Below are positions 275 to 26,999 of a DNA stretch of 64,000 nt, piece by piece (within the stretch, counting starts at the first letter, position 1; each line of letters begins with the position of its first letter). The DNA is from Paracoccus methylovorus. Lineage in GTDB: Bacteria > Pseudomonadota > Alphaproteobacteria > Rhodobacterales > Rhodobacteraceae. Location of the stretch: NCBI RefSeq assembly GCF_016919705.1, contig NZ_CP070368.1, positions 1,426,001 to 1,490,000 on the forward strand. The letters are read 5' to 3'. Under the pieces are notes generated by a model. The model was not told the DNA's origin. It was given only the letters and a program-made list of their open reading frames with translations, and ran no database searches. The position numbers were made by a program, and so were the translations under genes.

Positions 275-1480
275 TTGCGAATCGGTTATTTGATCAATAC
301 ATATCCGCGCCCCTCGCACAGCTTCATCCGGCGCGAAATCGCGGCGCTTGAGAGTGAAGGTCTCGAAATCCACCGATTCGCCATGCGCGGGGACCGGGAT
401 GCCCTGACCGATCCTGCCGATCTGGCCGAGCACACCCGGACCGAGCGCATTCTTGAAGCGGGGGCTGGCGCACTGCTGAAGGGCCTTTTCCGACAGTCCC
501 TTGCAAAACCTGCCCAATTCGCCACCGCCTTGCGGTTGGCGCACCGCCGGGCGCAAGCCGGAGAATCCAGCCTGATGCGGCAGATAATTTATCTGGCCGA
601 GGGCGCGCGCGTCGCTGCCCGCGCACAGGACTTGGGGCTGACACATATTCACGCGCATTTCGGCACGAACTCGGCGCGGGTCGCCGCTTATGCCCGCTTG
701 CTGGGTGGCCCCACCTTCAGTTTTACGGTCCACGGCCCAGAGGAATTTGACAATATCCTGGCGCTGGATCTGGGCGGAAAGCTGGCGCTGGCCGAGTTCT
801 GCGTGGCTGTCAGCAGCTATGGCCGCTCGCAAATTTGTCGCTGGGCCGCAGCCGCGGATTGGGAAAAGATTCAGGTCGTCCATTGCGGGCTGGATCTGAG
901 CCGCTGGGCCGGGCCCTTGCCTTTGCCTCAGGGCCCTTTTCACATGGTCTCTGTCGGTCGTTTTGCCGAGCAAAAGGGCTTTGGCCTGCTGATCCGCGCT
1001 TTTGCGCTGGCTTGGCGACACAACCCACGGCTGCATCTGTCGCTGGTCGGCGACGGCGAGCTGCGCGCCCAGATCGAGGCGCTGATTGAGGCAGAGGGCA
1101 TGGGTGATGCCGTCCGACTGCTGGGTTGGCAGGATGAGGCCGGTGTCCGTGCGGCCATGGAGGCTGCCCATGCACTGGTCACGCCCAGTTTCGCCGAGGG
1201 CCTGCCGGTGGTCATCATGGAGGCCATGGCCTGCGCCCGGCCGGTCATCGCCACCTATATCGCCGGTATCCCCGAACTCGTCCGGCCGGAACAAGAAGGC
1301 TGGCTGGTTCCCGCAGGCGACCCCAAGGCGCTGGCCGAGTGCATGCTGCAAGCCGCCGACACCGCACCCGAGACATTGGCCGCAATGGGCGCGTCAGCCC
1401 GCGCCCGCGTCATCGCCCGCCACGACATCCGCGCATCGGCCCGCAGATTGGCCGCGCTGTTCAGCCGCGCCACAGGCTGA
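275..1480 (+). CDS. Family 4 glycosyltransferase (GT-B fold)
   Basis: A 401-residue cytoplasmic glycosyltransferase that should transfer a sugar from a nucleotide-sugar donor to a lipid-linked or soluble acceptor. The N-terminus (IGYLINTYPRPSHSFIRREI) is the typical GT4 opening for exopolysaccharide and colanic-acid-type enzymes. The C-terminal half carries SVGRFAEQKGF and the EX7E donor-site motif in AEGLPVVIMEAMA. The start is a TTG, chosen because the family motif begins there and a GGGGA sequence lies about nine bases upstream. Its last 20 bases overlap the 3' end of the convergent phosphopantetheinyl transferase gene. Position next to a PKS/NRPS operon and two other glycosyltransferases suggests product glycosylation or a polysaccharide locus; the acceptor cannot be read. 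Confidence 0.85.
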   Translation: MRIGYLINTYPRPSHSFIRREIAALESEGLEIHRFAMRGDRDALTDPADLAEHTRTERILEAGAGALLKGLFRQSLAKPAQFATALRLAHRRAQAGESSLMRQIIYLAEGARVAARAQDLGLTHIHAHFGTNSARVAAYARLLGGPTFSFTVHGPEEFDNILALDLGGKLALAEFCVAVSSYGRSQICRWAAAADWEKIQVVHCGLDLSRWAGPLPLPQGPFHMVSVGRFAEQKGFGLLIRAFALAWRHNPRLHLSLVGDGELRAQIEALIEAEGMGDAVRLLGWQDEAGVRAAMEAAHALVTPSFAEGLPVVIMEAMACARPVIATYIAGIPELVRPEQEGWLVPAGDPKALAECMLQAADTAPETLAAMGASARARVIARHDIRASARRLAALFSRATG

Positions 1481-2087
1481 TCGCCAGCCAACATTCTGCC
1501 GCCTGCCCCCAGCGACCGCCAATCAACCGGTCCCCCATGCAAGCACGAAACCGTGTCGGGCCGATTACGGCGGGAACCTCGCGAAAGTCCAGCATCCGTC
1601 CGGTCAGCGGATATTGCGCCTTGAACATCGCCTCTTTGGCACAAAAAGGCAGCAAGGGCGCGAAGGGGGAGCCGTTCAGGCGAAAGGGCATCACGGCCTC
1701 GGCCAACCCCTCGGGAAGCGAGCGGGCGCAGGGCTCCAGATCGATACCCACGCTTGCTCCGCCTGGCGGCGCGGCAATGGCGATGCAGTAATCGCCGCTA
1801 TGTGACAGGCTGGCACGGATACCCTGCGGCAAGTCGGGCTGACGATCCGGCCGCGCCACGATGGGCAGATCGGCGGGCAGGTCATGCCCCGCCGCACGGA
1901 TCGCCGCCCGCAATGCCATGCGCCCCAAGGCAAACTCGCGCCGTCGTTTCGGGACGGCACGGGTGACGGCCTCAGCCTCCTCGGGCCGAAGCGGCGCGGG
2001 CTCCGCCGTCAGCGGCAGCACCGCGCAGCCATAGCCGGACGGCAGCAGGCGTCGCGCCAGCGCATCAAGCGCGGCGACTCCGCTCAC
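1461..2087 (-). CDS. Sfp/EntD-type 4'-phosphopantetheinyl transferase
   Basis: A 208-residue enzyme expected to transfer 4'-phosphopantetheine from CoA to the conserved serine of carrier domains. Family landmarks are visible in order: RRREFALGR, SLSHSGDYCIAIAA, GIDLE (magnesium-binding acidic pair) and FCAKEAMFKA, the W/F-x-x-KEA motif. It is the last gene of the minus-strand operon and its ATG overlaps the NRPS stop by four bases. Its natural substrates are therefore most likely the carrier domains of the NRPS just upstream and the PKS two genes further up. The length is short for the family but all catalytic motifs are present. Confidence 0.92.
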   Translation of the reverse strand: MSGVAALDALARRLLPSGYGCAVLPLTAEPAPLRPEEAEAVTRAVPKRRREFALGRMALRAAIRAAGHDLPADLPIVARPDRQPDLPQGIRASLSHSGDYCIAIAAPPGGASVGIDLEPCARSLPEGLAEAVMPFRLNGSPFAPLLPFCAKEAMFKAQYPLTGRMLDFREVPAVIGPTRFRACMGDRLIGGRWGQAAECWLAISLWRG

Positions 2088-5000
2088 CGCCCGCCGCGCA
2101 ATTGTGCCCGCAAGGCCCGACGCCGGGCCATGGCATCATCACCGGCTTCGGCTGGCTCGGGTGGCGCCACGGGCGCGACTGGGCTCGGTGCAACGGCAGC
2201 CGGGGCAGCGCTGTTCGCCGGCATCAGCGAGGCGACGTGCTTCAGGAAATCCGCCATTACCGGAAAACGGAAAATATCCGTCACGCCCAGACGCGGCAGC
2301 GATAGCCGGTCACGGATCGTCCGATGCAGTTGGATCGCCAGCAGCGAATGCCCGCCCAAGGCAAAGAAATTGTCGCGCGGGCCGATCTGCGGCACCCCCA
2401 GAACCTCGGACCACAGCGCCTGCACCGACTGTGCCAGATCCTCGGTCGGCGCAGCGACCGATGCGGCGGAGGTGGTCTCGATGACCGCCGACGGCGCAGC
2501 CCCGACCCGAACCGGCGCGGCACTGCCCGGCACCGGCAGGTGCTTGCGGTCGATCTTGCGGTTCGGGGTCAGCGGCATCTTGTCCAAACGCACGATCCGC
2601 CCCGGCACCATGTGAGAGGGCAGATTCGCCACCAACGCCTCGCGCAGCGGCTTCTCGGACAGATCATCGGCCCCGGTGACATAGGCAACCAGCCGTTTGT
2701 CGCCGGGCGTATCCTCGCGCACCAGCACCACCGCTTCGCGCACGCCGGGCAGCGCAGCCAAGGCCGCCTCTATCTCGCCCAACTCGATGCGGAACCCACG
2801 CAGCTTGATCTGGTGATCGGCCCGGCCGATATAGTCCAGCCCGCCCTCTTCACGCCAGCGGACCAGATCGCCGGTGCGATACATGCGCGCGCCCCAAGGC
2901 GCCGCACGTTCCGCAGGCACGAACGGATCCGGGCGGAAGGCCGCCTCCGTCAGATCATCGCGTTGCCAATAGCCGCGCGTCACACCATGACCGCCGATCC
3001 ACAACTCGCCCTGCGCCCCCGGAGGCACCGGCACGCCATCGCCGTCCAGCACGTAGACCTGAGTATTGGCGATCGGTCGGCCCAGCGTCACCTCGCCGCC
3101 ACCGGTCAGGTCGGCCACCGTAGACCAGATCGTCGTTTCGGTGGGGCCATACATATTCAGCACCCGCGCGCGGGTGACCGATCTGATCTCGGCCAGCAGC
3201 GACGGCGGCAGCGCCTCGCCACCCACCATCACGCATTTCAGGCCGGCCATCGCCCCAGCGACCTGCGGGTCCGAAACCAGAATCCGCGCCATGCTGGGGG
3301 TGCATTGCAGATGCGTCACCTTCCAGCGACGTATCTGCGCCGCGATCGAGAAATCGCCGTCCTCTGGCGCTTCGGCCTGCGGGTTCACCGCAGCTCGCAA
3401 CTGCGCCAGCAACGGAAAGCCGGCCACGACCTGCTCGGGCGCGATGCCATAGTCGATCAGGCAGGCCACCTCGTTCACGCCGATCTTCTTCAGTTGCTCG
3501 ATGCGGGCGATGCCGTCCTCAAGCGAGCCGAACAGGCCCGAATCGTCGAAATAGCGCAGGAAGGCGAATTCCAGGATGCCGTCCACCTCCTCGGCAGACA
3601 GCGAATCAAGGTCGATGGCCATCGGGCTGGTCATGCCGGCCGGGCGCCGGAAGGCCGGGAAATCCCAGGCGCATTGCTTGACCAGCGCGGTGGCGCTGGC
3701 CAGGTAATTCTTCATCGGCTGGCGGGCGATCTCGCGCGCCGTCTCGCGATCCTCGGCCAGATAGGTGTGCAGCATCAGCGTGACGGTAAAATCCGCCGGA
3801 TCATACCCGGCCGCGCGCAGCGCCGCGTGATAGTCCTTGATGCGGCTTTCCACCGTGTCGATGCTCTGGCCCAGCAGGTGGGTCAGCACGTTCATGCCCA
3901 GCCGGCCGGCCTCGACCCAAGTCTCGGGATTGCCGGCGACAGTCATCCACAGCGGCAGTTCGTTCTGCACCGGACGCGGCTGTGTGACCACGCCAAAGCT
4001 GCGACCGTTGGCATGAGGGAAATCGACTTTTTCGCCGCGCCATAGCCGACGCAACTGATCCACACCGTCGGCCAGCGCTTTCTTGTTGTTCGGCGGCGCA
4101 TTCTCGGGACGCAGCACGAAATCATCGGGTTGCCAGCCAGAGGCGATGGCCAAGCCGACTCGCCCGGCGGTCAGGTTGTCGATCATCGCCCATTCCTCGG
4201 CGACACGGGCGGGATGGTGCAGCGGCAGCACTACGCTGCCGGCGCGCACCGACAGGTTCTTCGTCACCGCCGCCACGGCAGCGCCCGAAACCGAGGGGTT
4301 CGGATAGGGTCCGCCGAAGGCATGGAAATGCCGCTCGGGCGTATAGACCGCAACAAAGCCGTTCTGGTCGGCAAAGCGCGCACCATCCAGCAGCAACTGG
4401 TATTTCTTCGGGCCGGGACCGTCGTCGTTGCCCCAATAGAACAGGCTGAAATCCATCCCGCCCTGCACCTCGCGGCGCGGCTGTGCAGGCGCGCTGGACA
4501 CCGCCAGCCGCGATTCCTCGCCCGCGATCACCAGCCGCAGACCGCGCGCCAGCGACCAGAAAATCTCCAGCACCGAGATGTCAAAGGAAAGGCTGGTCAC
4601 CGCCAGCCAGGCATCGCCCGGGGCATGGGGAATGGCCGCATCCATACCGGCAAAGAAATTCGCCACATTGCGATGCTCGACCATCACGCCCTTCGGCCGC
4701 CCGGTCGAACCCGATGTATAAATCAGGTAGGCTAGGTTTTCCGGCTGGACCTGAGTGACAGGCGCCGCCACCATGCCCTGCGGCAGAGTATTGGGGATGG
4801 TCACCACCTGCGCATTATTTTGCGGCAGCCTGTCGGCAAGACCGTCCTGAACCAGCACCACCGCAGCGCCGCTATCCTGGATATAAAGCTCGATACGGTC
4901 GGCGGGGTAATCCGGGTCAAGCGGCACATAGGCCCCGCCCGCCTTCCAGATCGCCAGCGCCCCTATCACCAGTTCAGGCGAGCGTTTTGCAAACAATCCG

Positions 5001-6706
5001 ACCGGCTGGTCCGGGCCGACGCCCAGTTGCACCAGTTTTGCCGCCAACACATTGGCCGCGCGGTCAAGCTGGCCACGGGTCAGTGTTCGGTCCTCGAATG
5101 CCAGCGCCACCGCATCGGGGTCGGCGGCCGCCGTCTCGGTAATCAGGTCATGGATGCAGGCAAGCCGCACATCAAGCTGCGTGGCGTTGCGGGCGATCAG
5201 CAGGTCGTCGCGCTCGGCCGCATCCATCAGGGGGATATCGCGCAGCATAACCGTTCCGGGCAGCGCGAGACCCGCATCCAGCGCACGGGCCAGCCGTTGC
5301 GCCTGCGCGGAGGACACACGGGCGGGATCATGGTCCAGCCGGGCCACGGCTTCGGTCAGCGTCACCGTCAGCGCCGCGCCCTGAACCGGGCCGCTTTCGG
5401 ACAGGTTGAGCGCCAGATCCGGCGTCGCCATATCGCGCAACTCGGGCGCGCGGTGCAACAGATCGGCCATGAAGAAGCCTCGCTTGGCCTGCTCGCCGAT
5501 TTGCGAGGCCAGCGCCTGCCCCAGATCGGCCAGCCTGCGGTCCCCCTGCACCTCGACAGCCAAAGGCTGCCAATCCGCCACGATCCCGGCGGCCTCCGGC
5601 TGACCTGCGGGTCGCAGCGCCAGATCGAACGCGGTCTGCCCAGCCAGCCGCGCCAGCAGCGAGGCCGCAAGCGCGATCCGTTCAGGCGAAGCACCGGGCA
5701 TCAGTTGCACAGACTGGGTTGCGCCGGACCCCTCGCCCGGCAGCACCGCCGGATTCATCCGGGCCAACCGCGCGCGCCACCAAGCGTCATGTTTGGCCGC
5801 CTGCTGGCCAAACGTCGTCAACCGCGCGGTCTCGTCAGGGAAAAGCGGCGGGATCACCGTTCCGACCGAAGGCGATTCACCGGCAAATCGCAGCTTAACC
5901 GCAGCCTTGGCGGTCGCGATGGTCGCGATCGAGCCCTCTTGCGCCAGTACGGTGCCGGGGGGTGCATTGGTGGGCTCTGTCCCTTCGAAAGCCGCGACCA
6001 GCAATACGCGGTCAGCCAGCCGCACCTTGGGCAGGGCCAGCGGATTCCAGTAGTCGCCATGGTCGAGGCCGCGCACAAGCGCACAGATCCGGGCGGCGGG
6101 CAGCGAGAAATCCAGCACGGCGGCCGCATCCGGACGCTTGTCCTTGCCGACATAGCTGCGCTGCGACAGATCCTGCCGCACCCGCTGCGGGCCACCTGAC
6201 TCAAGCTGCGCCACCACGTCGGCAAAGCTTTCGGCACCGCGGGCAAAGCAGCGCGCATTCAGCGTCAACGCCGTATCGTCGCGGCCGATCTCGAACCGGC
6301 GCTGGGTCAGGATGTCACCTTCATCCACGCCACCCTCGATCATGTGCCAGGTGACGCCATGCTCGGGCTCGCCGCCGATGATCGCCCAGACCGGCGCGTT
6401 CAGGCCGGCCAGCTTCGGCAGGGGGCCATCATGAAAGTTGATCGCGCCAAGGCGCCCGCGCGCCAGCATCTCGGGGCGCAGGATGGACAGGTTGGACACA
6501 CTGAAAAGCCAGTCGGCGGACATGGCATCCGGGGGCACCGGCGCGTCCTGATCCTCGACCGCCAGCCCCGCCTCTTGCGCCCAATCGCGCAAGTCGGGAT
6601 TGCGTGTCACCACCGCGGTTATGTCATGCCCGCGCGCCAGCAGCGTTTCGGCCGCATGGCGCAACAGAGATTCGTTACCCACCAGAATCGCGGAAAAATG
6701 CGTCAT
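2084..6706 (-). CDS. NRPS with formyltransferase domain and a luciferase-like monooxygenase inside its adenylation domain
   Basis: A 1540-residue single-module synthetase. Residues 1-250: methionyl-tRNA-formyltransferase-like domain with the Asn-His-Asp set (INFHDGPLPKLAG, then GGVDEGDI). Residues 330-510: resembles the C-terminal half of a condensation domain, with no HHxxxDG. Residues 520-740: first half of the adenylation domain (YLIYTSGSTGRPKG; SFDISVLEIFW). Residues 745-1110: FMN-dependent luciferase-like monooxygenase (MDFSLFYWGND, ASGWQPDDFVLRP) of the family named after MupA/Atu3671. Residues 1115-1385: rest of the adenylation domain (MYGPTETTIW, YRTGD, NRKIDR). Residues 1405-1485: carrier domain (GGHSLLAIQ). 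By-eye pocket residues D-I-L-S-M-G-M-I-W-K resemble the glycine code. It has no thioesterase, so it probably hands its intermediate to the PKS. Start and stop overlap the flanking genes by four bases. Confidence 0.9.
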   Translation of the reverse strand: MTHFSAILVGNESLLRHAAETLLARGHDITAVVTRNPDLRDWAQEAGLAVEDQDAPVPPDAMSADWLFSVSNLSILRPEMLARGRLGAINFHDGPLPKLAGLNAPVWAIIGGEPEHGVTWHMIEGGVDEGDILTQRRFEIGRDDTALTLNARCFARGAESFADVVAQLESGGPQRVRQDLSQRSYVGKDKRPDAAAVLDFSLPAARICALVRGLDHGDYWNPLALPKVRLADRVLLVAAFEGTEPTNAPPGTVLAQEGSIATIATAKAAVKLRFAGESPSVGTVIPPLFPDETARLTTFGQQAAKHDAWWRARLARMNPAVLPGEGSGATQSVQLMPGASPERIALAASLLARLAGQTAFDLALRPAGQPEAAGIVADWQPLAVEVQGDRRLADLGQALASQIGEQAKRGFFMADLLHRAPELRDMATPDLALNLSESGPVQGAALTVTLTEAVARLDHDPARVSSAQAQRLARALDAGLALPGTVMLRDIPLMDAAERDDLLIARNATQLDVRLACIHDLITETAAADPDAVALAFEDRTLTRGQLDRAANVLAAKLVQLGVGPDQPVGLFAKRSPELVIGALAIWKAGGAYVPLDPDYPADRIELYIQDSGAAVVLVQDGLADRLPQNNAQVVTIPNTLPQGMVAAPVTQVQPENLAYLIYTSGSTGRPKGVMVEHRNVANFFAGMDAAIPHAPGDAWLAVTSLSFDISVLEIFWSLARGLRLVIAGEESRLAVSSAPAQPRREVQGGMDFSLFYWGNDDGPGPKKYQLLLDGARFADQNGFVAVYTPERHFHAFGGPYPNPSVSGAAVAAVTKNLSVRAGSVVLPLHHPARVAEEWAMIDNLTAGRVGLAIASGWQPDDFVLRPENAPPNNKKALADGVDQLRRLWRGEKVDFPHANGRSFGVVTQPRPVQNELPLWMTVAGNPETWVEAGRLGMNVLTHLLGQSIDTVESRIKDYHAALRAAGYDPADFTVTLMLHTYLAEDRETAREIARQPMKNYLASATALVKQCAWDFPAFRRPAGMTSPMAIDLDSLSAEEVDGILEFAFLRYFDDSGLFGSLEDGIARIEQLKKIGVNEVACLIDYGIAPEQVVAGFPLLAQLRAAVNPQAEAPEDGDFSIAAQIRRWKVTHLQCTPSMARILVSDPQVAGAMAGLKCVMVGGEALPPSLLAEIRSVTRARVLNMYGPTETTIWSTVADLTGGGEVTLGRPIANTQVYVLDGDGVPVPPGAQGELWIGGHGVTRGYWQRDDLTEAAFRPDPFVPAERAAPWGARMYRTGDLVRWREEGGLDYIGRADHQIKLRGFRIELGEIEAALAALPGVREAVVLVREDTPGDKRLVAYVTGADDLSEKPLREALVANLPSHMVPGRIVRLDKMPLTPNRKIDRKHLPVPGSAAPVRVGAAPSAVIETTSAASVAAPTEDLAQSVQALWSEVLGVPQIGPRDNFFALGGHSLLAIQLHRTIRDRLSLPRLGVTDIFRFPVMADFLKHVASLMPANSAAPAAVAPSPVAPVAPPEPAEAGDDAMARRRALRAQLRGGR

Positions 6707-7698
6707 GGTTTACCCTTTTTAACATGAACGGGCTTTGGTTGCGAACGAAAGGCGTGACGCATCAACTGGATCAGGTGGCCCTGCGGACCATCCGGCTTGC
6801 GCCCCGTCAAAAGGCAGCGCAGGCGAAATACCCCTGCACCGCCCAAATGCGCGACTGTGGCCCAAAGCGCGCCCAGACGCCCATGATGTTTTTCGAAATA
6901 ACGCCGCCGCGAATCGTACCAGTAATCCGGCGCGCGCTTCCATTCCCTCATCCCAGTGCTGACTGAACCAATATGCAGAACCAAACTTTCAACGACGTAA
7001 TGGGTTTGCCAGCCTGCCTGCGCGGCACGGCGGCACAGGTCGGTTTCTTCGTAGTAGAGGAAGAATCCCTCGTCGAAGAGACCGATTCGATCCAGCACAT
7101 CCATGCGGATCATCATTGACGCTCCGGCCGACCAGTCCACGCGACCAGATGTCTCGGGCTGCGGCAGCGCCACAATCTTGCGCCGCAACAGGCGCGAGAT
7201 CGGTCCGGTGCGGCTCATCGCCTCGAACTCGCTGGCGGCGCTGGGAAAGCGGAACGCCGTCGGATGGGGCACGTCATCGGTGCCGCGCAGGCGCGAACAG
7301 GCAATCGCGGCCTTGGGATGCGCCACCAGATAATCGACCAGCGCCCGGATCGAGCCCGGCTGCGGGATGGCGTCCGAGTTCAGCAGATAGACCAGATCGG
7401 CCCGGCGCCCATCCGGCAGCCCTTGGCGGATGCCATGGTTATTGCCCGCACCATAGCCGCCGTTCCAGCCCGATTGCACCACCGCAACCCGGCCGGAACT
7501 CAGCCAGCCGCGCGCCTCGGCCTCGGCCAGCATCTTGTCGAAACTGCCATCGCCGGAATCGTTGTCCACGATGGTCAGCCCGCCGTCGATACCCTGCATT
7601 TCGCGTAACGCGGCCGCTGCGGCATCCAAGGACATCTCTGGCGTGCGCCAATTCAGCACGATGACGTGAAGGCTGGGCGTGTTTGCGCTTTGCTGCAT
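6703..7698 (-). CDS. Family 2 glycosyltransferase, rhamnosyltransferase-like
   Basis: A 331-residue GT-A fold glycosyltransferase. Visible features are LHVIVLNWRTPEMSL at the start, IVDNDSGDGS, NGGYGAGNNHG, the metal-binding region LVYLLNSDAIP, and the late GFFLYYEETDLCRR segment typical of rhamnosyl-type transferases. It lies inside the biosynthetic operon, starting two bases after the PKS stop and overlapping the NRPS start by four bases. It should therefore be made together with both synthetases. This supports glycosylation of the polyketide/peptide product, though the sugar and acceptor are not evident from sequence. Confidence 0.88.
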   Translation of the reverse strand: MQQSANTPSLHVIVLNWRTPEMSLDAAAAALREMQGIDGGLTIVDNDSGDGSFDKMLAEAEARGWLSSGRVAVVQSGWNGGYGAGNNHGIRQGLPDGRRADLVYLLNSDAIPQPGSIRALVDYLVAHPKAAIACSRLRGTDDVPHPTAFRFPSAASEFEAMSRTGPISRLLRRKIVALPQPETSGRVDWSAGASMMIRMDVLDRIGLFDEGFFLYYEETDLCRRAAQAGWQTHYVVESLVLHIGSVSTGMREWKRAPDYWYDSRRRYFEKHHGRLGALWATVAHLGGAGVFRLRCLLTGRKPDGPQGHLIQLMRHAFRSQPKPVHVKKGKP

Positions 7699-7700
7699 GG

Positions 7701-10700
7701 TTACTCTGCCGCCTTGATCGCCGCCGAAGTGTCCACATCGGCTTCACGCAGGGTTTCACGCAGGACCGAGGCCAAGCGGCGCACGTTCGGCTCCAGCACC
7801 ATGGAATCATGGTCGCCCGGCACCTCGATCACACGCAGGTTCGGCATCCACGGTGTCCAGCCGTTATCCTCGGTCACATAATCGCGGCCCGAGTTGATCC
7901 AGAGGCCACCCGTGACTTTCCAACGCCGATCAAGCGGCGGCCGGAACATTGCCACCGGCCCGTCCCAGACCGAAAGCTGCATCTTCGGCAGCGCCGCAAG
8001 GAACGCGGCCTCGATAGCCAGATCGTGGAAGGTCCCCGTGGCCTCGGTCGCGACTTCCGCCTCAACCGCCTTGGCCTTGCTGCGACGTTGGAACTCATAC
8101 GAGATACGGTCTCGCAGCCATTTCCAGACAAAGCCCGCGCCACCTTCGCGCAACTCGCCCAAGCGGATCATCAGCCGGTCCTGCCGGCTGACCGGCTCGC
8201 GCGACGGCAGCGGCGTGTCGAGCATGACCAGCATCGCCACCTCTTCGCCCGCCGCGCGAAGCTGGCGCGCCATCTCATAGGCTGTCAGCCCGCCGCCTGA
8301 AAAACCACCCAGCAGATAGGGCCCCTCGGGCTGCACCTGACGCAGTTCCTGAATATAATCCCGGGCAGCTTCGGCAAAGGTTTCATGCGGCTTGTCGTCG
8401 CCCAACAGCCCACGCGCCTGAACGCCGTAAAAGCGGCGATCCGATCCCAGCCGTTGCGCCAGTTGCCGCAGGTTCATGATATTGCCGAACATGCCGGCGA
8501 CCATGAAGAAGGGCGTGCCCTCGCCCCGCCCGCCCATATCGACGAGGAAGCGATATTTGGGCCGGGCCGAAACCGGCAACTCGCGGACATTGTCCGGCGA
8601 GACCAGTTCGCGCGGGCCGGTGCGTTCCTCGATCAGCGCGGCAAGCGCGGCAATGGTCGGCGCCTCGAACAGGGTCGAGATCGGCAGATCCACTCCGAAT
8701 GCCTTGCGCAACTGCCCGAACATGCGCACCGCGATCAGCGAATGGCCGCCAAGGTCAAAGAAACTGTCCGCCGCACCGACCTGGGCAATGCCCAGCAGTT
8801 CGGACCAGATCGCAGCCAGTTCCGCCTGAATGCCCGGTGCCGGTTCAACGAAATCGCTATCGAGGTCGGGGCGCTCGAACCCGCCCTCGGCGGGCGCCGC
8901 ATCCTCGGTCACGCCAGCCTCGGCGATCAGCGCGTTCAGGTCCAGCGATGAGACATAGACCTGCGACAGGCCGGTCGAGATGGCACGGCTGAGCATTGCG
9001 GGACCGATCGCCGCCGGAATGCCCTGGCTGATGTTGTGCTGCAGGCGACGCTCGGCCGCGGACAGGCTGCGCGCGGGCTGCGCCCGTGTTTGCGGTGTGG
9101 CCGAAATGGCCGCCGCCAGCTTGCGCAGCGCAAAGCCCCGGATCTCGGCGCAGACCGTCCCGTCCGGCGCGGCCAGCGTGATGTCGAATTGCGCCATGCC
9201 CTGCGCATCCAAATTCTCGCCCGAATTGCGGATCCTACTGATCACCTGCGCCGGCAGCGGCCGGTAAAGCCGGATGGAACGATAGCCCATCGGCACCCAC
9301 AGGTTCTCGGGCGTCCAGCCCTTGATCAACTGCATCGCCCAGCCGGTAGCAATGTCCAGCAGGGCCGGATGCGCCAGCCAGCCTTGCTCCAGATCGCCGG
9401 TGAATTCGGGCGAAAGCGACAGTTCCGCCACCCCCTCATCACCAGTGATGCGGAAACGGCGCAGCACCTTCCAGCGCGGGCCAAAGGCCATCTGGCGTTC
9501 CTGAGCCGAGGGGATCGGCACGCCCTGCCCGTCCTGATCCCAGTGGCCGCCCTGCACCGACAGCGCCTCGGGCGTGGGTTCCTGAACCGGGCTGACCAGA
9601 GCCGACACGTTCGGCTCGCCCTGCGGATCCTCAAGGATCTCGATGCGCATGGCATCGCCTTCGGGCAAGACGCGAGTGCTGACCAGCGCGGTATCCAGAA
9701 CCAGCAACGGACGGCGGAATTCCAGATCGCGGATCGCCAGCGGCAGGCTCAGCCCGCATTCCTGCGCCGCCTCGGCAATCAGCTCGATCCAGCCGGTGCC
9801 GGGCATCAGCGCCTGACCGGCGGTGGTCTTGTGACCGCCGATGATCCAGTCGTCCAGCTTCAAAGCGGTGCGGAACTCTCGCCCGCCGGGCAGCGGCAGG
9901 CTTTTGTCCAGCAGCGGCCGCCCTTGCGGCGCGACAACGGCCGAGGCGGTGTCCAGTCCCATGGCCCGCGCGGCCATGCCGGTATCTGCCCAAACGCCCC
10001 AGTTGACCGCCACCACGCGACCCAGCGCCGCCGGTGTCGAACGGGCCACCGCGTTCAGATATTCGTTGGCGGCGACGTAATCCGCCTGACCCACCGAGGC
10101 GATCACCGACGAGGTCGAGGAAAACAGCACCGTCAGCTTGGCCGGATCGGCCGAAAGCGCCTGAACCAGCGCACGCGTGCCCAGCAGTTTTGGGGCCAGC
10201 ACGTCCCAGGCCTCGTCATCGGTCTTGGCCGCGATCAGCCCGTCGCGGATCACGCCGGCCGCATGCAGCACCACATCAAGACTGCCGAAGCGCGCCTTGG
10301 TTTCGGCGACGGCGCGGGCCATGTCCTCGGGGCTGGTCACATCGGCGCGGATCGCCAGAACCTCGGCACCCAGCGCCTGCAACTGACGGACCAAGGCGGT
10401 GACGGCGGGCGAATCCACCCTGCCGCGCGTGGTCAGGGCCAGCTTCGCCCCACCCCGCTGCGCAAGTTCGCGCGCGATGGTCTGACCAAGGCCGCCGAAA
10501 CCGCCGGTGATCAGGCAGGTCGCACCTTGCGCAATCGCGGCCATGCCATCATCGGCCAGAGCCACGCGTTCAAGGCTTTGCTCAAAGCGGCGCCCGTCGC
10601 GCCAAGCCGCCACAGCCGCACCCGAGGGGGCCAGCGCCTCTTCCAGCAGGTTCGTGGCCAGCGCATCCAGACCACCCTTGGCCGGCACGCGGATATCCAC

Positions 10701-13700
10701 CAGCCGGGCCGAGACACCCGGCATCTCGTTCGGCATGACCCGGATCGGCCCGGCAGCCGTTGCCTTTTCGGGCGCGGGCACCTGCTCATCCGCCACGCGC
10801 AGCGCGTCGTTGCAGACCGCGATCACCTCCAGTTTCGTCTCGGGCAGTTCCACGCCAATGGCCTGCGCCAGATGCAAAAGACCGAAGAAGCCACGCTCCA
10901 ACTGGCTGTTGAGCAAGCTGGAGCCGGGCCGGAATTTCGCCCCTTGCGTCACCGACCACAGATGCAGGATGCGGTCCGGCGCCATATCCTGCCCGACCAG
11001 CGCGGCCAGCAGCATCTCATAGCCCTCGCGGTCGGATTCGACCGGCAAGGTAAAGCGGCCCTCTCCCTTGTCGGCAAAGGTATCGCCCACCTGGACCACT
11101 GCGACACGTTGACCCCGCGCCCGCAAGCCGCCCACCACGCGGTCGGCAAGGCCAAGATCGTCGGCAAAGATCAACCAGTTCTGCACATCCTGTGCCACCG
11201 GCCCTTGCGGTCCGATTTCGATGGCGGGCGAGGCCAGCTTCCACGCCGGCCGCCAGCCCCAGTCCGCGGGCTCGTCAATCCGGGCCAATTCCGCCACCGC
11301 TTCGGTCGAGGTATTTGCAGCGCGTTCGATGAAATAACGTTTGCGTTGAAAAGCATAGCCGGGCAACGACAGGCGCTGACGCCGCGCGCCACCCCAGATC
11401 TGATCCCAGTCGATCTGCCCGCCGCAGGCCCAGAACCGCGCCAGCGCGCCCATGAAATAGCTGTCGTCGCTGGTCGTATGATCGCGATGGCGCAGGGTCG
11501 AGATGACCTGATTGGCGGCGACGGCCGGATGCGCCTTGGCCATGGCCTGCATGGCGCGACCCGGACCCACCTCGAGGAAAACCCGCCCCGGCACCTGCGC
11601 CAGATGCGAGATCCCGTCGGCAAAGCGCACGGTGCCGCGCAGATGCGCCACCCAATAATCGGGGCTGGTCGCCTCGGCCACCGTCAGCGGTTGGCCGCTG
11701 CGGTTCGAGATGATCGGGATTTGCGGCGGGTTCAGCGCAATGCCGGCCAGATAGGCGCGGAATTCCGCCAAAATCCCGTCCAGCATCCGCGAATGCGCGG
11801 CGATGGAGATGGCAATGCGCTGGCATTCCACCTCGCGCGCCGCCATCTTTTCGGCAAAGCGGTCCAGCATCGCGTCCGGCCCGGACACGACCGACAGGCC
11901 CGGCGCATTCACCGCAGCCAGATCCAATCCCAGTTCCGCCAGTTCGGCCGCAAAGTCCTCGGGCGCGAGGGGCACCGACAGCATGCCGCCGGCGGGGACA
12001 CGGTCGAACAACTGCCCGCGCAGGCGCACCAGACCGATGCAATCCTCGAACGACATTACCCCGGCGATGCAGGCGGCGGTATTTTCGCCCATCGAATGGC
12101 CGATCAGCGCCGTGGGACGCACCCCCCAGCTGATCCACAGTTGCGCCAGCGCATATTCGATGATCATCAGCAGTGGCAGTTGCAACGAGGGCTGCAAAAG
12201 GCGGCGGTCCGCCTCGGCCTCGGCGCCCGGTTCGGGCAACCACAGGGCGCGCAGATCGGCGCCATGCGCGTTCGTCATGTGGTCCAGGCCCCGGTCCATC
12301 CATTCGCGGAACACCGGTTCGGTTTCGTAAATTCCCCGGGCCATGCCGGCATATTGCACCCCGCCGCCGGGCAGCATGAACACAGGCTCTGCCGGATCGC
12401 CCACCGCCTGATGGTCGAAAACCAGCAGCGGATCGGGATTGGCCAGCAGCGCCGCCGCCTCGGCCGCGTCCCGCGCGACCAGCACGCGGCGGCGGTCGAA
12501 CTGCCGCCGGCCTTGGGTCAGGGTAAAGGACAGGTCGGCCATGTCCACGTCTTGATTGGCGCTCAGCCAGTCCGCCAACCTCGTCGTATTCGCATCCAGC
12601 CCCGCCTTGCCGCGGCCCGAAACCGCAATGATGTGGAATGGCCAGTCGGACTCGCCCGAAACCTCGGCCACAGGCGGCTCTTGCACGATGACATGGGCGT
12701 TGGTGCCGCCGACGCCCAGTGAGTTCACACCGGCGCGGCGCGGACCCGGGACCGGCCAGTCGGAGAGCCGGTCATTGACCTGAAACGGCCCGCTTTCAAA
12801 GTCGATGGCAGGGTTGGGCGCCTCATAGCCAAGCGTGGCGGGGATCTGGCCGTGATGCACCGCCAGCGCCGATTTGATAAGCCCGGCGCTGCCCGCCGCC
12901 GTATCGAGATGGCCGATATTGGTCTTGACCGAGCCGATGCGGCACGGCCCCTGCCGCGTCCCTTCGGAAACCCGTTCATAAGCCTGGGTCAGCGCCGCGA
13001 CCTCGATCGGATCGCCCAGCGCTGTGCCGGTTCCGTGGCATTCGACATAGCCGATGCTGTCCGAGGAAACCCCGGCCATGACCAGCGCCTCGGCCACGGC
13101 CTGTGCCTGACCCTCGACACTAGGGGCCAGATAGCCTGCCTTGGCCGCGCCGTCGTTATTGATGGCCGAGCCCTTGACGACCGCCCAGATATGATCGCCA
13201 TCCGCAATCGCATCCTTCAGCCGCCGCAGCGCCACCACTGCCGCACCGCTGCCGAAGACGGTACCCTGCGCGCGATGGTCGAATGCGTGGCAATGGCCGT
13301 CGGGCGACAGGATTTCGTTTTCCTTGTACAGATACCCCAATCCATGCGGCAGCTCGATGGTCACGCCGCCGGCCAGCGCCATGTCGCATTCACCCGACTG
13401 CAGCGCCTGGCAGGCCATGTGGATCGCCACCAGAGAGCTCGAGCAGGCGGTCTGCACGCTGATGCTGGGCCCCTTGAGGTCGAAAATATGGCTGACGCGC
13501 GTGGACAGGAAATCCTTGTCGTTGCCGGTGTGGCGCAGCAGGAAATGCCCCACCCCATCCACCAGATCGCGGTTCGAGCACACGTTCCAATAAAAATAGC
13601 TGCCCATGCCGCAGCCCGCCCAGACGCCGATATTGCCGGCGAAGTTCTCGGGCATATGCGCGGCATCCTCCAGCGCATGCCAGCAGGTTTCCAGAAACTT

Positions 13701-13994
13701 GCGGTGCTGGGGATCCATGATTGCCGCTTCCTTGGGCGAAAGCCCGAAGAACTCGGCATCGAATTCGTCGAAATGTTCCAATATGGCGGCAGTGGGGACG
13801 TAGTTCGGATCCGACATCCGCACCCGCGATTCCCCCCGCGCGATCAGATCGGCTTCGGACCAGCGGCGGATCGATTCGACCCCGCGGCAAAGATTGTCCC
13901 AGTACTCCGCCACTCCGGCAGCGCCCGGTAATTGGGCGGCCATGCCGACGATTGCGATATCACTGTCCTCAACGGCGGTCTTATCAAAGGCCAT
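7701..13994 (-). CDS. Modular type I polyketide synthase, KS-AT-KR-DH-ACP-TE
   Basis: A 2097-residue one-module PKS. KS, residues 10-435: active-site Cys184 in QTACSSSLVAIH, plus HGTGT and KTNIGHLD. AT, about 535-830: GHSMGE. KR, about 1155-1330: LITGGFGGLGQTIA. DH-like hotdog region, about 1355-1620: GGHKTTAGQALMPG and AHPALLDIATG. Carrier, near 1750: LGGHSLIAVR. Thioesterase, about 1830-2060: GFSGGG. The KR precedes the DH, the reverse of the usual order. The start at 13994 was chosen because MAFDK leads directly into the KS and AGG lies six bases upstream; ATG 14006 is an alternative. It is the first gene of the operon and the only one with a release domain, so it probably acts after the NRPS. 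Confidence 0.9.
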   Translation of the reverse strand: MAFDKTAVEDSDIAIVGMAAQLPGAAGVAEYWDNLCRGVESIRRWSEADLIARGESRVRMSDPNYVPTAAILEHFDEFDAEFFGLSPKEAAIMDPQHRKFLETCWHALEDAAHMPENFAGNIGVWAGCGMGSYFYWNVCSNRDLVDGVGHFLLRHTGNDKDFLSTRVSHIFDLKGPSISVQTACSSSLVAIHMACQALQSGECDMALAGGVTIELPHGLGYLYKENEILSPDGHCHAFDHRAQGTVFGSGAAVVALRRLKDAIADGDHIWAVVKGSAINNDGAAKAGYLAPSVEGQAQAVAEALVMAGVSSDSIGYVECHGTGTALGDPIEVAALTQAYERVSEGTRQGPCRIGSVKTNIGHLDTAAGSAGLIKSALAVHHGQIPATLGYEAPNPAIDFESGPFQVNDRLSDWPVPGPRRAGVNSLGVGGTNAHVIVQEPPVAEVSGESDWPFHIIAVSGRGKAGLDANTTRLADWLSANQDVDMADLSFTLTQGRRQFDRRRVLVARDAAEAAALLANPDPLLVFDHQAVGDPAEPVFMLPGGGVQYAGMARGIYETEPVFREWMDRGLDHMTNAHGADLRALWLPEPGAEAEADRRLLQPSLQLPLLMIIEYALAQLWISWGVRPTALIGHSMGENTAACIAGVMSFEDCIGLVRLRGQLFDRVPAGGMLSVPLAPEDFAAELAELGLDLAAVNAPGLSVVSGPDAMLDRFAEKMAAREVECQRIAISIAAHSRMLDGILAEFRAYLAGIALNPPQIPIISNRSGQPLTVAEATSPDYWVAHLRGTVRFADGISHLAQVPGRVFLEVGPGRAMQAMAKAHPAVAANQVISTLRHRDHTTSDDSYFMGALARFWACGGQIDWDQIWGGARRQRLSLPGYAFQRKRYFIERAANTSTEAVAELARIDEPADWGWRPAWKLASPAIEIGPQGPVAQDVQNWLIFADDLGLADRVVGGLRARGQRVAVVQVGDTFADKGEGRFTLPVESDREGYEMLLAALVGQDMAPDRILHLWSVTQGAKFRPGSSLLNSQLERGFFGLLHLAQAIGVELPETKLEVIAVCNDALRVADEQVPAPEKATAAGPIRVMPNEMPGVSARLVDIRVPAKGGLDALATNLLEEALAPSGAAVAAWRDGRRFEQSLERVALADDGMAAIAQGATCLITGGFGGLGQTIARELAQRGGAKLALTTRGRVDSPAVTALVRQLQALGAEVLAIRADVTSPEDMARAVAETKARFGSLDVVLHAAGVIRDGLIAAKTDDEAWDVLAPKLLGTRALVQALSADPAKLTVLFSSTSSVIASVGQADYVAANEYLNAVARSTPAALGRVVAVNWGVWADTGMAARAMGLDTASAVVAPQGRPLLDKSLPLPGGREFRTALKLDDWIIGGHKTTAGQALMPGTGWIELIAEAAQECGLSLPLAIRDLEFRRPLLVLDTALVSTRVLPEGDAMRIEILEDPQGEPNVSALVSPVQEPTPEALSVQGGHWDQDGQGVPIPSAQERQMAFGPRWKVLRRFRITGDEGVAELSLSPEFTGDLEQGWLAHPALLDIATGWAMQLIKGWTPENLWVPMGYRSIRLYRPLPAQVISRIRNSGENLDAQGMAQFDITLAAPDGTVCAEIRGFALRKLAAAISATPQTRAQPARSLSAAERRLQHNISQGIPAAIGPAMLSRAISTGLSQVYVSSLDLNALIAEAGVTEDAAPAEGGFERPDLDSDFVEPAPGIQAELAAIWSELLGIAQVGAADSFFDLGGHSLIAVRMFGQLRKAFGVDLPISTLFEAPTIAALAALIEERTGPRELVSPDNVRELPVSARPKYRFLVDMGGRGEGTPFFMVAGMFGNIMNLRQLAQRLGSDRRFYGVQARGLLGDDKPHETFAEAARDYIQELRQVQPEGPYLLGGFSGGGLTAYEMARQLRAAGEEVAMLVMLDTPLPSREPVSRQDRLMIRLGELREGGAGFVWKWLRDRISYEFQRRSKAKAVEAEVATEATGTFHDLAIEAAFLAALPKMQLSVWDGPVAMFRPPLDRRWKVTGGLWINSGRDYVTEDNGWTPWMPNLRVIEVPGDHDSMVLEPNVRRLASVLRETLREADVDTSAAIKAAE

Positions 13995-14313
13995 ATGGTG
14001 CCTCATGTAACTCGTGGAATGCCCTTGCGGGCGGTAATGACTTAACAACTGACGCGCGTGTCCGGCATAGCGAATCCAGCGCGCCGCACCAACCTTTAAA
14101 ACCATCCGGATGCCTGCCTTTTTAGGCAGAATCCGCTTGCCAACCGACAAATCCGAAATAAGCGATATTGACGTCGCACCGGGGATCAGGTCCAGCATGT
14201 TCGTCGGCCGCACCCGCGGAAACACCCCTGCCCGCCCCATAAGGCGAAGGGCGTTGCAATCCCGCCCCCGCCAACTCATCTTGCGCTTAACTCCGGCCGG
14301 ACCGAGGCTTATC
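13995..14313. promoter_or_regulatory. Divergent intergenic region between the PKS operon and the wecG-like gene
   Basis: About 320 bases separate two divergent genes, so promoters for both should lie here. The stretch is somewhat more AT-rich around 14085-14160 than the neighbouring genes. I could not identify a convincing -35/-10 pair or an operator. An upstream extension of the PKS frame through this region lacks any recognisable protein sequence and is treated as non-coding. No regulator gene for the cluster is visible nearby. Confidence 0.45.
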
Positions 14314-15087
14314 ATGCATTTCAGCTTTCCCGACGGCAAAGCCGTCCGCATAAATTGCCGGGATTCTTCCGCTTTGCTTGCCACGGTGGGGCAGCGGCTG
14401 GCCGAGGGGCGCGGTTTTGCCCTTGCCACGATCAACGTCGATCACCTGCAAAGGCTGGGCGAAGATACGGGTTTTCGCCAGGCATACGCCGCGCATGATC
14501 TGGTCTGCGCCGACGGCAACCCCATCGTCTGGCTATCGCGGATCGCCGGCCGGCCAGTGGCGCTGGCGCCGGGTTCGGATCTGGTGCTGCCGCTGGCGGC
14601 CCGCGCAGCGCAAGCCGGCCTGCCCGTGGCGCTGATCGGCAGCAGCGACGAATCGCTGACGCTTGCCGCACAAAGCATGCAGGCAGCCGTGCCGGGACTG
14701 CGGGTCGCGCTGACCCATGCGCCGGGGTTTCCCTTTGATCCCATTGGCGAGGAAGGGGCCGAAATCATCGCCCGCATCCGCGAATCGGGCGCGCGGCTGT
14801 GCTTTCTGGCGCTTGGCGCGCCACGGCAAGAAATTTTCGCCATCCGCGCCCGCGATGCGCTTGGCGACGTGGGCTTCGCCTCGATCGGGGCCGGGCTGGA
14901 CTTTCTGTCCGGCCATCAGCGCCGCGCCCCGCAACTGGTGCGGCGGTTGAAGCTGGAGTGGTTGTGGCGCATGCTGTCCAACCCGCGCCGGCTGTTTTTG
15001 CGCTATGCCAAGGGCTTTGCCATCCTGCCCGGACATCTGCGTCAGGCGCTGGCCATCCGCACCCAGGGTGACAGGACGCAGGAATAG
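14314..15087 (+). CDS. WecG/TagA/CpsF family glycosyltransferase
   Basis: A 257-residue GT26-family enzyme. Members transfer ManNAc, ManNAcA or a related sugar to a polyprenyl-diphosphate-linked sugar at the inner face of the membrane during polysaccharide or teichoic-acid-type assembly. Visible signatures are LATINVDHLQRL near residue 40, the catalytic-region Asp in VCADGNPIVWLSR, LIGSSDESL, and LGAPRQE followed by ASIGAGLDFLSG. The start at 14314 gives the family's usual length and has GAGG upstream; the open frame continues further 5' without family similarity. It diverges from the PKS operon and converges on the ABC transporter. It could belong to a polysaccharide pathway or decorate a lipid-linked product. 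Confidence 0.88.
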   Translation: MHFSFPDGKAVRINCRDSSALLATVGQRLAEGRGFALATINVDHLQRLGEDTGFRQAYAAHDLVCADGNPIVWLSRIAGRPVALAPGSDLVLPLAARAAQAGLPVALIGSSDESLTLAAQSMQAAVPGLRVALTHAPGFPFDPIGEEGAEIIARIRESGARLCFLALGAPRQEIFAIRARDALGDVGFASIGAGLDFLSGHQRRAPQLVRRLKLEWLWRMLSNPRRLFLRYAKGFAILPGHLRQALAIRTQGDRTQE

Positions 15088-15108: not shown

Positions 15109-16143
15109 CTAGGCGGTCAGCACCAGCCAACCCGCCTGTTGTGCGGCAAGATGCACCTGCGCGCCGGGGGCCGGCAGTTCAGTGCCCGGTTCGTTGAAAC
15201 GGTCCAGCACCACCTCTTGTCCCGCCGCCCGCGCCCTGAGCCGCTGGACCGAGCCCAGAAACTCGGCACCGGTAATCTCGGCCGGGATGCCCTCGGGGGC
15301 GATGCGCAAGCTTTCCGGTCGTGCGGCCAAAATGATGCGGCCGGCGGGCAAGGGACGATCCAGCGCGATCTGCGCCCCTTCGACCCGGACAAGTCCGCGC
15401 GCCGCGTCCAGCACTTCGGCATCAAAGCGGTTCAGCGTACCGACGAAGCCGGCGACGAATTCGGTGGCGGGTTGGTTGTAGATCTGCGCCGGCGTGCCGG
15501 TCTGGTCGGCAATGCCCTTGTGCATGACCACGATGCGATCAGAGATCGACAGTGCTTCTTCCTGATCGTGGGTGACGAAGATGGTGGTGATGCCCAGTTG
15601 CTGCTGGATCTCGCGGATCTGGTTGCGGAGGGACACCCGGATCTTGGCGTCCAGCGCCGAAAGCGGCTCGTCCAGCAGCAGCACCCGTGGCCGAGGCGCA
15701 AGCGCGCGGGCCAGCGCCACCCGCTGTTGCTGGCCACCCGACAATTGCCAGGGATAGCGCGCGCCCAGATCGGGCAGCCCGATCAGCTCCAGCATCTGGG
15801 TCACCCGACCGCTGCGCTCAGCCCGCGCAACTCCGGCGACGCGCAGGCCGAAGCCGACATTTTCAGCCACGGTAAGGTTGGGGAACAGCGCATAGGACTG
15901 GAACACCATACCGATCTGGCGCTGGTTCGGACGCGCCCTTGTCACATCTTGCCCGTCAATGACGATACGGCCCGCGGTCGGCGTCTCGAACCCCGCGACC
16001 ATGCGCAGCACTGTCGTCTTGCCGCATCCCGACGGGCCAAGGAACGAAACGAACTCGCCCTTTGCGATGGCCAGGTCGAAATCATGCACCACCTTGGTCA
16101 CGCCAAAGGATTTCTGCAAATGGTCCAGGGTCAGAAAGCTCAT
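15109..16143 (-). CDS. ABC importer ATP-binding subunit, PotA/FbpC type
   Basis: A 344-residue ATPase with Walker A GPSGCGKTT, Q-loop VFQSYALFP, signature LSGGQQQR, Walker B VLLLDEPLSALD and switch His in VTHDQEEA. The C-terminal third (from about residue 240) is a TOBE-like regulatory domain. It energises uptake by the two permeases encoded just upstream; its ATG overlaps the second permease stop by four bases. Sequence type places it in the polyamine/iron/phosphonate importer group, but the substrate cannot be assigned from the ATPase alone. Confidence 0.92.
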   Translation of the reverse strand: MSFLTLDHLQKSFGVTKVVHDFDLAIAKGEFVSFLGPSGCGKTTVLRMVAGFETPTAGRIVIDGQDVTRARPNQRQIGMVFQSYALFPNLTVAENVGFGLRVAGVARAERSGRVTQMLELIGLPDLGARYPWQLSGGQQQRVALARALAPRPRVLLLDEPLSALDAKIRVSLRNQIREIQQQLGITTIFVTHDQEEALSISDRIVVMHKGIADQTGTPAQIYNQPATEFVAGFVGTLNRFDAEVLDAARGLVRVEGAQIALDRPLPAGRIILAARPESLRIAPEGIPAEITGAEFLGSVQRLRARAAGQEVVLDRFNEPGTELPAPGAQVHLAAQQAGWLVLTA

Positions 16144-16922
16144 TTCGCAGGTATCCTTGTGCCGAACAGGCGAGACAGCAGTTGCATCAGCCCCATGCAG
16201 CCCCAGGTGACGGCAAAGGCGATCACCGCCAGTGCCGCCGGCTCATAGGCGCGATTGGCGCCCAGAAGCTGCATGTAAGGACCGAAGGCCGGGCGGTTCA
16301 GCAGCGCCGCCATGGTGAATTCGCCAATGACGATGGCAAAGGACAGGAAAGCGCCCGACATCACTGCCCCCATCACATTGGGCAGGATCAGCCGGCCGAT
16401 GATCCGCACCCAGCCGGCGCCCAGCGATTGCGCCGCCTCGGTCAGGCTGCGCACGTCCAGCGTGGAAAGCCCGGTGTCGACGGCGCGATACATGTAAGGC
16501 AGCGCCAGCGTGGCATAGCCGCAAAGCAGCAGCAGGTTGGTGCCCGAAGCGGTGCCGGTCAGCGGCAGGATCGACGAGGTGTTGAAAAGCCGGATATAGC
16601 CGAAAACGATGACGATGGCAGGGATGACCAGCGGCAGCAGGGTGATGAACTCGATCACCGGGCGCAGGCGCGGCAGGCGCAGGCGCACCCAATAGGCGGT
16701 CGGCACCACGATCAGCACGCCCAGCGCGATGGTCAGCAGCGCCATCACCACAGAATAGCTGAAGGTGGCGCGGAAATTCGGATCCGCCAGCACCGAACGA
16801 TAGGCGTCCAGCGAATACTCCCCCCGCCGCATGCGCAACGAGAACTCGACCGTGCCGATCAGCGGCAGCAGGAAATACAGGCTGCCGACGATCAGCGCGG
16901 CCCAGGACCAGAACCGCTTCAT
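16140..16922 (-). CDS. ABC importer permease subunit 2, PotC type
   Basis: A 260-residue inner-membrane permease with about six hydrophobic helices and the cytoplasmic EAA-like loop (LTEAAQSLGAGWVRIIGRLILP) that contacts the ATPase. The start at 16922 overlaps the stop of the first permease by four bases, so the long N-terminal frame extension upstream is rejected. It forms the translocation channel with permease 1. The operon order is binding protein, permease 1, permease 2, ATPase. Confidence 0.9.
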   Translation of the reverse strand: MKRFWSWAALIVGSLYFLLPLIGTVEFSLRMRRGEYSLDAYRSVLADPNFRATFSYSVVMALLTIALGVLIVVPTAYWVRLRLPRLRPVIEFITLLPLVIPAIVIVFGYIRLFNTSSILPLTGTASGTNLLLLCGYATLALPYMYRAVDTGLSTLDVRSLTEAAQSLGAGWVRIIGRLILPNVMGAVMSGAFLSFAIVIGEFTMAALLNRPAFGPYMQLLGANRAYEPAALAVIAFAVTWGCMGLMQLLSRLFGTRIPAK

Positions 16923-17767: not shown

Positions 17768-17789
17768 TCCGCCTCGCCTGCTGTCAAAG

Positions 17790-17815
17790 CGGCCCCGCCG
17801 GTTCAGGCGGGGCCG
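17790..17815 (-). terminator. Intercistronic hairpin after the binding-protein gene
   Basis: A perfect 10-bp inverted repeat (CGGCCCCGCC, six-base loop, GGCGGGGCCG) lies between the binding-protein stop and the permease start. No T-run follows on the minus strand. It is more likely an attenuator or mRNA-stabilising hairpin than a full terminator. Confidence 0.6.
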
Positions 17816-17822
17816 TTGCGTT

Positions 17823-23517: not shown

Positions 23518-23585
23518 GATTGTTCCATGCTGGAGATCGCCTTTCGAGAATACGCCGGCCTTGTCGCCCCCGCAATCGGCCGAAG

Positions 23586-24392: not shown

Positions 24393-24401
24393 ATCCGCCC
24401 C

Positions 24402-25361: not shown

Positions 25362-25374
25362 GGCTGACCCTTTC

Positions 25375-26787: not shown

Positions 26788-26999
26788 CGCCACCACCCCT
26801 TACCTCTGTCCACGATCTTCGCACCTGCGCCGGCACTGTCCACAGCGGGACTACCTGCAGCCCAGGCGAAATCTGGATTTGACAAGGGTTGGGCCTTCGC
26901 TGCCGGAATAAAAGGCAGAACGCAAAGCCCCGGTTCCGGCAGGGCCGGGAAAAAGCGCAAAAGCGCCCTTCCCACCTTGCCGGTTTTACAGGCAGCGCC

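Follow-up and report, generated by a model that had tools for sequence, protein, structure and literature searches.

The window, by which we mean the whole stretch of 64,000 nucleotides analysed here (C1:1426001-1490000 of a Paracoccus methylovorus genome of 4.38 Mb in 5 contigs), carries four closely packed genes on the minus strand, for a PKS, a family-2 glycosyltransferase (GT2), an NRPS and a 4'-phosphopantetheinyl transferase (PPTase). These genes, their domains and the two genes bordering them are as follows, in window positions.

14314..15087, plus strand: WecG/TagA/CpsF-family glycosyltransferase, divergent from the PKS gene
13994 to 7701, minus strand: PKS, one-module type I (KS-AT-KR-DH-ACP-TE), first in transcription order
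7704..8507, minus strand: thioesterase (TE) domain of the PKS, with the motifs GFSGGG, LDTP and GDHDSM
7698 to 6703, minus strand: GT2, between PKS and NRPS
6706 to 2084, minus strand: NRPS (formyltransferase, C-domain remnant, A domain split by a monooxygenase, PCP), without TE
5822..6706, minus strand: formyltransferase domain of the NRPS, about residues 1-295
5177..5647, minus strand: condensation-domain remnant of the NRPS, C-terminal half only, no HHxxxDG; limits approximate
3395..4450, minus strand: luciferase-like FMN monooxygenase domain (TIGR04020), residues 753-1104, within the A domain between a4 and a5
2234..2428, minus strand: peptidyl carrier domain (PCP), residues 1427-1491
2087 to 1461, minus strand: PPTase, GTG start, last gene of the operon
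275..1480, plus strand: GT4, EpsE-like, convergent to the operon

The PKS and GT2 genes are separated by 2 bases, and the GT2 and NRPS as well as the NRPS and PPTase genes overlap by 4 bases each. ATG 13994 is taken as the start of the PKS because it fits the N-termini of relatives; the longest frame starts with TTG at 14435. The PPTase is recognised by 4PPT_N above the cut-off, with an ACPS match just below it (24.5 versus 25 bits). Pfam and NCBIfam searches bear out the architecture that a first-pass annotation had read from this DNA (a one-module PKS with TE, a glycosyltransferase, a formyltransferase/monooxygenase NRPS and a PPTase), and the chemistry implied there, namely formylation, flavin oxidation, ketide extension and TE release, agrees with the domains found. 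The four-gene minus-strand operon proposed there likewise holds in its genes, their order and their tight spacing, but the range given to it, 2084..13994, omits the PPTase, which ends at 1461.

The surrounding exopolysaccharide locus

The operon sits inside an exopolysaccharide (EPS) locus and has EPS genes on both sides. The GT4 that converges on it reaches 228 bits, where the NCBIfam cut-off is 400. The 20 kb directly left of the window (L009) contain, in order towards the window, the following genes.

L009 13875-15323 (C1:1419878-1421323): flippase, above the Pfam cut-off
L009 15251-16753: Wzc-like protein, match below the cut-off
L009 16778-17632: CpsD-like protein, match below the cut-off
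L009 17783-18610: GT2, above the Pfam cut-off
L009 19185-19883: priming sugar transferase (PF02397), above the Pfam cut-off

The Wzc-like and CpsD-like assignments draw on matches that all score below the cut-offs (Wzz 23.9 versus 25.5, CbiA 19.8 versus 25.4 and XrtA-type autokinase 65.9 versus 230.65 bits); their position fits. With respect to a Wzx/Wzy-type system, the priming sugar transferase (PF02397) and the flippase are both present in the locus itself, and neither L009 nor the window edge shows a recognisable Wzy polymerase or Wza-type exporter. PF02563 is found at C1:1082773, about 340 kb from the operon, and a Wzy-like gene lies on another contig (C2); its product is 36% identical to a polymerase-like protein of Ruegeria conchae and is without a Pfam match. 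This gene is grouped with genes for an RTX-repeat protein, a GT87 and a UbiA/HAD protein (L097 4240-10483), a group that is possibly a detached part of a polysaccharide system. That the Wzy-like gene might belong to another EPS locus was considered and dropped, as the 20 kb of L097 hold nothing recognised as a full cluster.

The surroundings change the reading of the operon in several respects. The first-pass annotation had regarded it as self-contained and lacking an exporter, which does not hold, given the flippase and other EPS genes just left of the window; the exporter had seemed absent because roughly 5 kb separate the window edge from the flippase gene. Its guess of a cell-bound product we judge to be right. 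In an EPS locus the glycosyltransferase, taken there for a decorator of a free metabolite, is better read as a component of polysaccharide assembly.

Beyond the WecG-type gene follows a solute ABC transporter, encoded by a minus-strand operon (window 15109-18929) for an ATPase with TOBE_2, two permeases and a solute-binding protein of the SBP_bac_6 kind. Farther along, also on the minus strand, genes for a Proteasome-family protease, a bacterial transglutaminase-like protein, an Alpha-E protein and a circularly permuted ATP-grasp protein stand in a row (22792-26796), a set that has the look of an uncharacterised operon for forming or processing peptides. It is followed by a minus-strand gene for a secreted M10 metalloprotease of the serralysin kind, which has many calcium-binding RTX repeats (27000-29381).

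Domain content and predicted chemistry of the assembly line

The formyltransferase residues N90, H92 and D128 are invariant in 31 sequences, a set that is without L030, where none was found, and by choice without L045; we take them to be the catalytic N, H and D. Its profile finds ArnA and Fmt and, more weakly, LgrA, and because of the matches to ArnA and Fmt the acceptor of the formyl group may instead be a sugar amine. Of a condensation domain only the C-terminal half is matched, by NRPS residues about 354-531, and the HHxxxDG motif is absent from all 78 NRPS relatives examined, as is expected of an initiating module. The inserted monooxygenase (TIGR04020, 462 bits against a cut-off of 244) splits the AMP-binding domain and also matches PuwE; across relatives the a4-a5 distance has a median of 474 residues.

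Read by motif offsets, the A-domain signature of the NRPS is DILQMGMIWK, of the glycine type, from which we predict that the domain activates glycine. All 73 readable relatives share the signature DILQxG[ML][IV]W, and 13 have exactly DILQLGMIWK. In the numbering used for these offsets, positions 235, 236, 239, 278, 301 and 331 are constant in the 73, and 322 and 330 vary once each. The 73 come from 79 sequences, among which L123 held no NRPS frame and L048, L120, L128, L133 and L143 were unreadable; L043 and L135 are the same gene. DILQLGMIWK, one position off the signature of the window NRPS, is given in the available part of a recent report for four MOX-bearing domains that activate glycine (PMC12283262). 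Taken together, the motifs make an N-formylglycine-derived starter likely.

As far as its domains tell, the NRPS is consistent with an initiating module that resembles the formylglycine-loading one of conglobatin but has an additional oxygenase. CongA (conglobatin), OzmO (oxazolomycin) and the F-A-PCP module of LgrA (linear gramicidin) likewise carry an N-terminal formyltransferase in the initiating module. According to the accessible portion of the conglobatin study, CongA too has a glycine-type A domain, and CongA and OzmO hand over to a PKS, as the NRPS would do here (PMC4504003). Different from these three systems, the operon combines a condensation remnant, an inserted monooxygenase and a single PKS module with an EPS setting. 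Oxazole formation as in conglobatin was set aside, as the operon has no recognisable cyclodehydratase gene. The closest parallel for the monooxygenase are the myxothiazol and melithiazol modules, which, in the excerpt available to us, have a flavin domain at the same site of a glycine A domain, between a4 and a5, and α-hydroxylate glycine before cleaving it, while solanimycin B retains the α-hydroxyglycine and has its insertion at a8-a9 (PMC10204066). Yet those glycine-MOX modules are terminating ones with a condensation domain and a TE, whereas the NRPS of the window is a starting module with a formyltransferase in front, no functional C domain and no TE. A siderophore as the product, suggested by Atu3671 of Agrobacterium, was rejected, the common point being the name of the monooxygenase family only.

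In the PKS, Pfam and NCBIfam place the KR before the DH and find no enoylreductase domain. Among 47 of 52 loci (L026, L030, L045, L197 and L203 hold no whole PKS), the KS cysteine, the AT serine and the ACP motif are present in all 47 PKSs, the TE motif GxSGGG in 46 and each of two DH motifs in 43. The KR pattern, which is perhaps too strict, is found in only 31 of the 47, including the PKS of the window. The TE is weakly similar to the thioesterase of Pks13 (E 1e-10) and is matched better by NRPS thioesterases. The Pks13 thioesterase passes an acyl chain to trehalose and thus is a precedent for transfer to a sugar by such a domain.

Conservation of the gene company and co-inheritance

The operon keeps polysaccharide genes as neighbours across the family, and in the genus it is inherited together with the GT4 of the EPS locus. 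In a plasmid collection, 17 records hold an NRPS relative at a coverage of at least 80% and 43-52% identity, and all six of the plasmid loci read, from Ruegeria (twice), Parasedimentitalea, Paracoccus, Aminobacter and Shinella, contain polysaccharide genes. The plasmid and genome-contig relatives bear out the mention in the first-pass annotation of such proteins in rhizobia and roseobacters. On the Paracoccus marcusii plasmid, a second, different adenylation-domain protein is encoded beside the WecG and flippase genes of the same EPS locus (L012 1-2552).

The genome contigs yielded at least 80 NRPS loci among the matches listed. Gene neighbours were scored by strict polysaccharide markers (sugar transferase, WecG, flippase, Wzc, CpsD, Wza, Wzy/ligase-like and PglF; tblastn with at least 60 bits), with references from the plasmid loci L010-L015, L009 and the window, none of which is among the loci counted. 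PKS, GT2 and NRPS occur in that order in all 27 Rhodobacterales loci with a full-length NRPS among the matches listed, and within the same matches at least one marker is found in 26 and at least two in 24 of the 27; the flanks of L020 contain none. One marker is present in one of 46 other NRPS loci among the matches listed, a weak control because these come from other taxa; the 46 exclude L031 and L032, which are on short contigs, and the full-length relatives L026, L033, L034, L035 and L049. The latter are the farther relatives, from Agrobacterium (L026), Acanthopleuribacter (L033), a Myxococcota bin (L034), a Salinivenus bin (L035) and Novosphingobium (L049); L033 and L035 have no strict marker. 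PKS and NRPS relatives adjoin in L033, L035 and L049, and in L035 a GT2-like frame (14098-15012) is seen by eye between the two.

A matched comparison was made within the family, where 139 of 394 genomes have an NRPS relative at E <= 1e-250. In 40 of these, chosen for long contigs, the 20 kb downstream from the NRPS start were read, and for each genome another 20 kb of that contig, at a distance of 200 kb, served as the control. At least one strict marker was found in 31 of the 40 downstream stretches and in 3 of the 40 controls, at least two in 29 versus 1, and at least three in 27 versus none; a PPTase match follows the NRPS in 36 of the 40 genomes. For the 11 stretches with fewer than two markers the upstream 20 kb were read as well, as they were for two others of the 40; G023, which belongs to the genus of the window, was read on both sides. 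With both sides combined, 10 of the 11 have at least two markers, which brings the total to 39 of 40, a figure that is not strictly comparable with the 1 of 40 because the controls consist of one stretch only; the 29 versus 1 is a like-for-like comparison. The exception, G144 (46% identity), holds a multimodular NRPS/PKS cluster without GT2. In G285 (L196) the GT2 is located elsewhere in the locus and not between PKS and NRPS.

The genus gives a complementary picture. NRPS matches (E <= 1e-200) occur in 62 of 121 genomes and GT4 matches (E <= 1e-100) in 53, all 53 of which have the NRPS; at these thresholds nine genomes have the NRPS without the GT4, and 59 have neither. The flippase (E <= 1e-80) is found in 64 genomes, 58 of them with the NRPS; the six without are among its weaker matches (39-43% identity), and four genomes have the NRPS without the flippase. 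WecG is a less specific partner, as it is present (E <= 1e-40) in 81 genomes, of which 60 have the NRPS. The control, the solute-binding protein of the adjoining ABC transporter and thus a non-EPS gene, is found in 35 genomes, 26 of them with the NRPS. The p-values, 3e-25 for the GT4 and 0.001 for the control, are inflated by the kinship of the genomes. NRPS and GT4 are about 20 kb apart in G436 and G466, on different contigs in some drafts and about 343 kb apart in G399, where flippase and WecG stay near the NRPS despite the distant GT4.

Disruption in relatives, which the first-pass annotation had named as evidence against its reading, is rare: among the matches listed, internal stops occur in G279, G262, G455 and one piece of G424. 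The NRPS relative is in eight pieces on NZ_CP143307.1 (H19) and in two parts, one with a stop, in G424, which reflects either decay or sequencing error. A near-identical cluster with a characterised product, likewise named as counter-evidence, was not met in the sequence and literature comparisons made here.

A proposed role in polysaccharide acylation and its alternatives

Synteny and co-inheritance strongly support a functional coupling of the operon to a polysaccharide, which we consider very probable; a covalent link of its product to the glycan would go a step beyond them. On balance we favour the view that, its exact structure aside, the product is an acyl substituent of the EPS, and the finding that the operon has no exporter of its own while a flippase lies in the locus counts for this reading. 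We infer every chemical step of the route, the number of extensions, the acceptor and the transfer by the TE. The PPTase would activate the carrier domains, and the NRPS would load glycine on its PCP, where the formyltransferase would N-formylate it and the inserted flavin monooxygenase would hydroxylate the α carbon of the formylglycine. The PKS would then extend the chain, probably once and probably with malonyl, and reduce and probably dehydrate it to a short acyl group, for example 4-formamido(-4-hydroxy)crotonyl or 3-hydroxybutanoyl. The neighbouring glycosyltransferases would build a lipid-linked repeat unit, one sugar of which would receive this group from the TE of the PKS, and the decorated unit would be exported by the flippase and polymerised. 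No dedicated acyltransferase common to the loci was recognised, and the transfer is therefore assigned to the TE by default; TE-catalysed transfer to the glycan is plausible at somewhat less than even chances. That the GT2 between PKS and NRPS handles the acylated sugar is a guess.

But would such an assembly line not rather make a free secreted small molecule, a signal, metallophore or antibiotic, whose genes accompany those for EPS as both serve life at surfaces and move together? Its modules are ordinary secondary-metabolite domains, and the wide separation of NRPS and GT4 in G399 would also suit this explanation. Orphan PKS/NRPS genes of roseobacters are moreover reported as secondary-metabolite clusters, in the passages of these papers at hand (PMC4062626, PMC10608839, PMC11225332). 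Among them the pair Inhi_1972/Inhi_1974 of Phaeobacter inhibens, to which those passages assign no product, probably represents the same operon type, to judge from the locus tags with one gene between them. However, the operon stays among polysaccharide genes across several different EPS layouts, every GT4-positive genome of the genus has the NRPS, and each of the 27 Rhodobacterales loci among the matches listed has a glycosyltransferase within the operon, so that we regard a free molecule as unlikely. A stand-alone antibiotic cluster in particular is not our first choice, given the EPS locus and the genus profile.

The PKS might, on the other hand, act iteratively and supply a lipid on which the polysaccharide is anchored or primed, a role that has been proposed for the WcbR/RkpA type of capsule PKS. 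PKS genes are known in capsule clusters, and WcbR and RkpA, described in the available section of the source as type I PKSs among surface-polysaccharide genes, resemble the PKS of the window in this setting (PMC3908369). Here, by contrast, the PKS is paired with an NRPS and an embedded GT2, carries a TE and is near a Wzx-type flippase. The lack of a recognised enoylreductase domain argues against a lipid, and the formylglycine-type NRPS partner and the TE better fit a short capped acyl group, which makes an anchor distinctly improbable. Within the acyl-substituent reading itself, the monooxygenase may cleave the formyl-hydroxyglycine, with loss of formamide, and leave a glyoxylyl thioester as the PKS starter. 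The a4-a5 insertion site shared with the myxothiazol and melithiazol modules and the nearly identical A-domain signature point in this direction, but formylating glycine merely to lose formamide would be wasteful, and α-hydroxyglycine is kept in solanimycin B and skyllamycin (PMC10204066, as far as the excerpt goes), a comparison weakened because their oxygenases sit elsewhere (a8-a9, or stand-alone). We hold such a cleavage to be quite unlikely.

The acyl-substituent reading, which we prefer, can be sharpened to a PKS-NRPS line dedicated to installing an N-formyl-α-hydroxyglycyl ketide on alphaproteobacterial EPS, the hemiaminal of which would be a latent aldehyde and could cross-link the matrix or bind metals. 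This sharper form is doubtful; if true, it would mean that assembly-line natural-product chemistry is used as polysaccharide chemistry in about one third of the sampled family genomes. The parts of the system are of known kinds, and what appears new here is the tie of this PKS-NRPS to exopolysaccharide; among the open-licence papers we found no report of such a tie for this PKS-NRPS and no assigned product. Roseobacter genome reports, in the parts available, list such PKS/NRPS pairs under secondary-metabolite clusters that have no known product. Ordinary culture extracts would not reveal a product bound to EPS, which would explain why none has been found. If the proposed role is true, it says where to look for this product, and assembly-line acyl groups would join the known substituents of polysaccharides in a family that is common in the sea and in biofilms. 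It would then also provide a defined handle for altering an EPS.
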